Assembly: GCA_947632155.1 (NCBI GenBank)
Contig: CANROF010000026.1
Span: 1-36,074, forward strand
Length of the DNA stretch: 36,074 nucleotides
DNA from: an uncultured Oscillospiraceae bacterium
GTDB taxonomy: Bacteria; Bacillota; Clostridia; Oscillospirales; Oscillospiraceae
Direction: 5' to 3'
A program made the position numbers and the translations under genes. The notes beneath the pieces were generated by a model, which ran no database searches, was not told the origin of the DNA, and was given only the letters and a program-made list of their open reading frames with translations. This document shows positions 7,377-18,760 of this stretch, in pieces. Position 1 is the stretch's first letter, and every line of letters starts with the position of its first letter.

Positions 7377-7381
7377 AAAAC

Positions 7382-7401
7382 GCGGAGGCAGGCGCCTCCG
7401 C
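7382..7401 (+). terminator. GC-rich hairpin after the DUF378 gene
   Basis: GCGGAGGC pairs with GCCTCCGC around AGGC, five bases after the DUF378 stop. There is no T-run directly behind it. The next hairpin, inside the repeat element at 7414-7433 (AAAAGCCC/GGGCTTTT), has T-rich tails on both strands and may complete termination. An almost identical hairpin lies at 7673-7692 on the far side of the element. Confidence 0.5.
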
Positions 7402-7656
7402 AGAGCCTGTCGAAAAAGCCCTGACGGGCTTTTCCGACAAGGGGGAACGTGCGGGAAATTTTCGCTGAATTTTGCGAAATTCAGCGAAAACTTCCCTGCT
7501 GTCGCCCTGCGCGCGCCCCGTTGGGGCACTACGACTCGCTAAGAGCCGCCGCATAGCGGCGGTTGCTCGCTTGCATGGCGCCTGCGGGCGCCAACTTGGA
7601 CGACAAAAGGGATTTTTTCCAAGGCACATGTCCTTGGAAAAAATATTGAATTTGAG
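7401..7656 (-). repeat. Structured intergenic repeat, copy 1
   Basis: About 256 bp that recurs, inverted, at 18473-18725. By hand alignment there are about 18 substitutions and two small gaps (roughly 92% identity). It is a string of hairpins: AAAAGCCC/GGGCTTTT (7414-7433), a 20-bp stem with one A-C mismatch and loop TGCG (7453-7496), CCGCC/GGCGG, GGCGCC/GGCGCC, and CCAAGG/CCTTGG flanked by T- and A-runs near 7615-7643. In the 20-bp stem the two copies differ by three compensatory base-pair changes. No ORF with a ribosome binding site is present. It lies between two convergent genes. Confidence 0.85.
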
Positions 7657-7672
7657 TTTTTTGACAATCTGC

Positions 7673-7692
7673 GCGGAGGCAGCCGCCTCCGC
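7673..7692 (-). terminator. GC-rich hairpin after the flippase gene
   Basis: GCGGAGGC/GCCTCCGC with loop AGCC, 11 bases beyond the flippase stop on the minus strand. It differs by one loop base from the hairpin at 7382-7401, so repeat copy 1 is bracketed by two nearly identical hairpins. Just inside it, minus-strand CAGATTGTCAAAAAACTC resembles CAGAGCCTGTCGAAAAAGCC at the other end, hinting at imperfect terminal inverted repeats. Confidence 0.5.
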
Positions 7693-7703
7693 ATACATAT
7701 TAT

Positions 7704-18472: not shown

Positions 18473-18725
18473 CTCAAATTCAATATTTTTTTCAAGGACA
18501 TGTGCCTTGGAAAAATCCCTTTTGTCGCACAAGTTGGCGCCCGCAGGCGCCATGCAAGCGAGCAACCGCCGCTATGCGGCGGCTCTTAGCGAGTCGTAGC
18601 GCCTCTGCGGGGCGCGCGCAGGGCGACAGCAGGGGCATTTTCTCTGAATTTCGCAAAATTCAGAGAAAATGCCCCGCACGTTCCCCCCTGTCGGAAAAGC
18701 CCAACAGGGCTTTTTCGACAGTCTG
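18473..18725 (+). repeat. Structured intergenic repeat, copy 2 (inverted relative to copy 1)
   Basis: The second copy of the element at 7401-7656, in the opposite orientation. It starts CTCAAATTCAATA and ends GACAGTCTG. The hairpin at 18632-18675 is a perfect 20-bp stem here, against one mismatch in copy 1. Three of its base pairs differ from copy 1 on both strands. The terminal hairpin AAAAGCCC/GGGCTTTT (18695-18714) has T-rich tails on both strands and can terminate transcription leaving hydA. It lacks the CAGATTGTCAAAAAA end sequence present beside copy 1. It also lies between convergent genes. Confidence 0.85.
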
Positions 18726-18760
18726 AGGGGCGGGTCCTTGGGACCCGCCCCTGGCTTTTT
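18726..18760 (+). terminator. Strong intrinsic terminator after copy 2
   Basis: AGGGGCGGGTCC (18726-18737) pairs perfectly over 12 bp with GGACCCGCCCCT (18741-18752), three-base loop, followed by GGCTTTTT on the plus strand. It would stop plus-strand transcription before it runs antisense into hydA. For hydA itself the stem lies directly after the stop codon but has no T-run on that strand. Confidence 0.7.

Follow-up and report, generated by a model that had tools for sequence, protein, structure and literature searches.

Hairpins as insertion targets are described for IS1272 and TnSha1 of the IS1182 family, whose target stem-loops include several confirmed transcription terminators and have no primary-sequence consensus; in the insertions treated there the stem-loop is deleted or replaced and no target duplication is formed (PMC4923244, PMC5678879). 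The model given in PMC5678879 also draws, as its pathway b, the duplication of the whole stem-loop as an outcome. The loci of this study resemble these elements in their hairpin targets and, for the insertion sequences (IS) among them, in an IS1182-family transposase, but the whole stem-loop is duplicated here, and the unit studied is a repeat of 200 bp that lacks a transposase gene. BOX, RUP and SPRITE of Streptococcus pneumoniae are regarded as MITE-like, with SPRITE enriched near gene 3' ends (PMC3049150). They are likewise interspersed in the genome as short folded units, modular or terminator-like, whereas host and sequences differ, and the passages of that paper on these repeats mention neither hairpin-length duplications nor the term 'compensatory' (PMC3049150). 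REP sequences of the GTAG and CGTC types are palindromes of 20-40 bp, the GTAG type being linked to tyrosine (RAYT) transposases (PMC3733652). They too are palindromes present in many copies, and their stems likewise show alternative residues that are complementary; in the present repeat, by contrast, the ends of a DDE transposase element enclose four hairpins. The structured mobile repeat bcr1 of the Bacillus cereus group is similar in size and differs in host, ends and target. According to ISfinder, repeat lengths vary and targets are palindromic in IS1182, so the duplication of hairpins may in itself already be known. In the literature covered, which included few subscription papers, we found no description of the element or of an IS1182-driven MITE. 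We consider it very probable that the repeat described below is a genus-specific, non-autonomous MITE which depends on an IS1182-type transposase, inserts at intrinsic-terminator hairpins, duplicates the stem-loop and has its modules shuffled.

Anatomy and distribution of the repeat

The window, meaning the whole stretch of 36,074 nucleotides analysed, comes from an uncultured Oscillospiraceae bacterium. A preliminary description had noticed in it a block at 7401-7656 that recurs inverted at 18473-18725, with about 18 substitutions, two small gaps and seven of the changes in one stem. Scripted comparison confirmed the recurrence and counted 18 substitutions from 7406 to 7656, or 20 from 7401, together with one 1-nt gap instead of two. 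The stem in question, that of hairpin H2, does differ at exactly seven positions, which form three compensated pairs (A-T to G-C, A-T to C-G and G-C to T-A) and one change that turns an A.C mismatch into A-T. Folding of both copies lies far below that of shuffles, with z of -6.59 and -8.55. The coordinates given there miss the right end; copy 1 spans about 7404-7671, has both terminal repeats and sits between two copies of a 22-nt hairpin (Table 1).

Copies open with the left end and H1; a linker around AGGGGAACGTGCGG leads to H2, whose cap is conserved, and H3, H4 and the right end follow. About 200 bp lie between the ends, or 265 bp in copies with an insert, which is too short for a transposase gene; we read this unit, in which conserved linkers join four hairpins, as a putative MITE. 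The long form, to which both window copies belong, has about 64 nt inserted within H3, and the limits of this insert follow from short copies that match the block query at 4-129 and 194-256 in BLAST. By eye, a second repeat inside H3, as if nested, was seen in the related copies L186, L150, L218, L166, L208 and L329. H1 stems are very variable, with the A-tract, G+C stem and T-tract mostly kept (by eye), and H1 may, as judged by eye, be a portable bidirectional terminator; it is absent from the consensus terminator scan of the window because its T run lies inside the stem.

Table 1. Features of the two copies of the repeat in the window
Feature	Position	Strand	Remark
Left duplicated terminator-like hairpin (target site duplication)	7381..7402	.	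Repeat of L001, 22 nt, score 19; terminator-like on the minus strand in the consensus scan
Left terminal repeat of copy 1 (AGCCTGTCGAAAAAG), overlapping the 5' arm of H1	7404..7418	+	
H1 hairpin of copy 1	7408..7439	+	A-tract, G+C stem, T-tract; bidirectional-terminator-like by eye
Conserved linker AGGGGGAACGTGC	7440..7452	+	
H2 hairpin	7453..7496	+	Variable stem on conserved cap GAATTYTGCGRAATTC; UGCG tetraloop
H3 hairpin, long form	7501..7604	+	
H3 insert, about 64 nt, long versus short form	7530..7593	+	Limits approximate
H4 hairpin ATTTTTTCCAAGGCACATGTCCTTGGAAAAAAT	7612..7644	+	
Right terminal repeat TTTTTTGACAATCTG	7657..7671	+	
Right duplicated hairpin	7672..7693	.	Empty site (L249) has one such hairpin
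Copy 2, long form, H1-H4	18473..18725	-	Right terminal repeat unrecognisable
H2 hairpin of copy 2	18632..18675	-	
Terminator-like hairpin AGGGGCGGGTCC-CAA-GGACCCGCCCCT	18726..18752	.	Left end of copy 2 (by eye)

With reference to its distribution, the core hairpin occurs at 117 places and the right-hand hairpin motif at 80 places in the 2.5 Mb draft genome from which the window comes (the source genome), and each backwards-pattern control gave 0. BLAST with the block returned at least 128 matching pieces (40 of 205 candidates scored). The genome-wide search that the preliminary description had proposed thus yielded more than 100 further copies, which the empty controls set apart from chance. 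For analysis, 109 copies of the source genome (of the 117 core places) and 110 related ones were used. The element was present in 22 of 34 genomes of the same genus, and the core hairpin in 0 of 147 genomes sampled from other genera of the family. Public genome contigs held at least 93 stretches, and all 80 of those listed belong to uncultured Oscillospiraceae with isolates named 'Lapin'; viral contigs searched with the core pattern gave 0 matches.

Duplicated hairpins and a probable IS1182-family partner

Copies were divided into class A, with two ends, and class B, without a recognisable right terminal repeat. Class A ends read CAGnnTGTCRAAAAA on both sides, some left ends being without CAG, and the terminal inverted repeats are CAGCCTGTCGAAAAA / TTTTTTGACAAnCTG in two-ended copies. 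Many of these have a complete hairpin outside both ends. Scored by local alignment with a threshold of 15, a flanking direct repeat was detected in 34 of 64 two-ended copies of the source genome against 2 of 4032 mismatched flank pairs, and in 14 of 35 related copies against 1 of 1190; no flank repeat reached that score in 30/64 and 21/35, respectively. The repeats begin 0-6 nt from the right end and measure 15-35 nt in the source genome and 21-38 nt in related ones. All but one of the 34 source-genome repeats fold as one hairpin of 18-35 nt, the exception being L004, where a 15-nt repeat without a fold lies 18 nt from the left end. Copy 1 of the window is among the copies with duplicated hairpin flanks, and we observed by eye its empty site in the same-genus locus L249, where a single hairpin stands between the left gene and the right gene known from the window.

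Judged from this anatomy, the whole stem-loop is duplicated at the target. The IS1272-type outcome, with the stem-loop lost and no duplication, was not encountered in copies with repeats, which have the whole hairpin on both sides. As to the enzymology, the element would insert where an intrinsic-terminator-like hairpin has its foot, the strands presumably being cut at the two feet. Repair would then copy the entire stem-loop, and the target structure would set how long the duplication is.

IS1182-family matches (NF033551) were found in 20 of the 34 genus genomes, eight of which have one above the NCBIfam cut-off (loci L265-L272). In seven of these eight loci the insertion sequence lies immediately between exact direct repeats, 21-31 nt long, every one of which forms a complete hairpin. 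Five of them (L268-L272), from five same-genus genomes, have ends of CAGnYTGTCAAAAAA and a length of 1496-1511 bp, while L266 and L267 are 1648 bp long with ends of CAGWCTGTMG; at L265 a search for ends of this kind found none. Protein identity between the two groups is about 40%, and Pfam DUF772 and DDE domains were recorded in two of the transposases checked. All eight genomes also contain the element. By their sequences, L268-L272 represent autonomous elements in the genus, with matching ends and the same duplication type, and an IS1182-family DDE transposase of this kind most likely moves the element in trans. Matches to the end pattern numbered 0-2 in the 12 element-free genus genomes and at least 2 in the 22 with the element, a contrast that offers weak support because most of the matches are probably the element's own ends, sites can be counted again and the backwards control gave 0-4. 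In three genomes (G155, G152 and G153) IS1182 matches occur although the element is absent.

The IS1182 copies of the source genome were also considered as partner and rejected, as they have ends of GGGGCTGTGAAAAA and another transposase group. Eight of these nine hits are 80-96% identical to L284 and one (L141) 62%, and identity to the L268 group is about 26-32% where the match runs long. The source draft genome gave 0 matches when searched for the IS-type ends, and no matching transposase was found in it. By eye, members of this source-genome group (ends GGGGCTGTGAAAAA or alike) lie in or beside the element copies L133, L136, L138 and L036, which suggests that the group also favours hairpins.

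Among the earlier proposals, the mobile DNA element recognised through hairpins holds with respect to mobility, through the terminal repeats, the duplicated flanking hairpins, the empty site and the IS1182-family elements with the same ends and duplication; recognition through hairpins fits the terminator-like target and may or may not extend to the element's own hairpins. The high copy number and the frequent position beside terminator-like hairpins would also suit immobile REP-like or terminator repeats, or a remnant of a group IIC intron, and group IIC introns likewise favour terminators. Against this stand the terminal repeats, the duplication of the flanks, the empty site and the agreement with the IS ends, and the window is without an Rfam match at gathering score; we regard this explanation as highly improbable.

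Covariation and exchange of hairpins

Alignment A1 was built from 163 short-form copies, long forms and copies lacking H4 being set aside; 109 passed the diversity filter, of which 95 were used and 14 left out. In these 95 diverse copies 95.3% of the cells are paired against 77.5% in shuffles, and a two-sided change that keeps pairing was observed in 35 of 48 pairs, amounting to 753 cells against 217 in shuffles (0/500). Sliding the partners by 1-3 columns gave 68-198 two-sided cells. Kinship among the copies inflates such counts, yet hardly on this scale. The compensated changes noticed between the two window copies are thus general, and the claim that the fold is preserved extends to the whole family of copies.

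All four combinations of H1 with H3 and of H3 with H4 occur among the 98 classified copies of the source genome, with counts of 47, 27, 8 and 6 for H1 TGTC/TGGC by H3 TCGC/TTTT, and of 44, 18, 11 and 12 for H3 TCGC/TTTT by H4 AAGG/GACG-GTC. Both flanks are shared in eleven pairs of copies; one pair is a single locus (L050), and the other ten fall at six sites. Four of these sites have flanks 75-96% identical and a difference in H1, in H2 or in both, with the stems remaining (nearly) paired (L216/L169/L202; L146 and L199 versus L226, with H2 common to L146 and L199; L112/L170; L215/L195). H1 is replaced and H2 nearly unchanged at the fifth site (L110/L149), and at the sixth (L177/L148) H1 differs and the H2 of L177 is decayed (0.59 paired). 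These mosaics and changed stems at orthologous sites indicate that whole hairpins are exchanged between copies, probably by recombination at shared linkers; re-insertion at the same site could also change the stems. The window copies may therefore differ by exchange rather than by seven separate mutations. Few private changes were seen among 56 young copies of the source genome.

Exchange by itself creates no new paired stems, so selection on the fold or self-templated correction is needed, and a constraint on the fold, acting at the RNA or DNA level, probably keeps the stems paired. The preliminary description had named selection or a copying mechanism as the cause; the copying mechanism gains support from the exchanged hairpins, and constraint on pairing is likely, although self-templated correction may act in its place. 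In quasi-palindrome correction, template switching during replication turns imperfect DNA hairpins into perfect ones, and, with gene conversion spreading them, compensation would arise without selection. In line with this, pairing is 0.90 in H4-less fragments versus 0.93 in full copies (18 vs 187, p=0.76), different perfect H1 inner stems stand beside (near-)identical H2 in one related genome (L145 on the minus strand, L161, L168, L201 and L203), and tandem and nested hairpins exist (L338, L334). However, linkers and caps are nearly invariant where stems vary, which calls for constraint or homogenisation as well, some single-arm variants have been left uncorrected, and the H2 arms have decayed in two truncated copies. 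Compensation without any selection is, in our assessment, unlikely.

Class B copies and the possible role of the folded unit

Class B copies keep paired hairpins without a recognisable right end, and many start with CTGGCTyGAAAG. Gene context was taken from a simple codon score, of which two scorings differ in counts and the stricter was used. The median distance of class B copies after a stop codon is 2 nt in the source genome (n=23) and 17.5 nt in related genomes (n=20), and the genes on both sides mostly share the orientation of the copy (++ 18 vs -- 4, p=0.004). For class A the figures are 8 vs 2 (p=0.11), which does not establish that the two classes differ in orientation.

Among the relatives compared at four class B sites (78 places), 4/20, 5/20, 2/18 and 3/20 have the core or H4, and two further remnants at class B sites were seen by eye (L301, L365). 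Several empty relatives of sites L110, L125 and L128 have, by eye, a short intergenic region in which no hairpin stands out, with L342 and L349 as exceptions where a hairpin is present; terminator insertion thus fails to explain these three sites. According to Pfam, the neighbours are RelA/SpoT and D-Tyr-tRNA deacylase (L110), class II aldolase and transketolase (L125), and, downstream of L128, serine dehydratase beta. Other forms recognised by eye comprise H1 and H4 only (L309, L311), a class A copy inside a class B H1 (L310), nested hairpins (L334), truncated and decayed copies (L335, L340), and three tandem hairpin-plus-linker units before the element, between RelA/SpoT and tRNA deacylase genes (L338). 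Other long sequences occupy one same intergenic site in L325, L326, L328, L331, L332, L336, L337 and L339 (by eye), which may be an insertion hot spot. Capture of a host terminator as the source of H1 was considered and is unsupported at L228, which by eye has its own terminator beside H1.

The structured RNA proposed earlier finds no match at gathering score in Rfam 15 within the window, and in five loci searched at E up to 5 only sub-threshold matches appeared. On the plus strand of H2, A.C exceeds G.U with 48 vs 20 distinct contexts (152 unique arm pairs). In A1 the counts of A.C and G.U are 32 vs 13 for H2 (p=0.007), 21/20 for H1, 7/5 for H3 and 3/2 for H4. The H2 excess speaks weakly against a plus-strand RNA, which the wobble counts thus do not favour, and would suit the minus strand, on which A.C reads as G.U. 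On the minus strand of copy 1, a sigma-70-like TTGTCA-16-TATTTT at 7667-7640, within the right terminal repeat and H4, reads into the element (shuffle mean 0.1).

It is possible, if doubtful, that the repeat is a structured RNA under host-level selection, whose hairpins act on site as a 3' UTR element, a terminator or a minus-strand small RNA H4-H3-H2 ending at H1, transposition having merely spread them. The well-paired H2 of class B (means 0.94 in the source genome and 0.95 in related ones), the position near stop codons with co-orientation, the H2 loop, which we take to be a UNCG-type tetraloop, the promoter-like site in copy 1 and the H2 wobble excess agree with it. Against it, the class contrast is not established, H1, H3 and H4 lack wobble asymmetry, class B copies are by eye without the -35 box, most relatives fetched at the four sites are without the element, and H2 is decayed in the truncated L335 and L340 (by eye). 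A mobile hairpin cassette turned host RNA appears doubtful as well; here class B hairpins, mostly in one orientation and often after stop codons, would be kept because the folded unit has a function, possibly as a small RNA transcribed from the minus strand, started by a promoter in the transposon end and stopped by a terminator in H1, with stems turning over by module exchange and loops and linkers fixed.

The mobile element that very probably underlies these repeats provides dozens of natural insertions with a complete hairpin duplicated, and seven full-length IS1182-family elements show the same; the length of the duplication would accordingly follow the target structure and not a fixed stagger. 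The published stem-loop model allows this outcome, and its authors report no duplications for new IS1272 insertions. With more than 100 copies in one genome, covariation, hairpin shuffling and terminator insertion can be traced together, and the family serves as a warning that strong covariation in a repeat is by itself no proof of a functional RNA.
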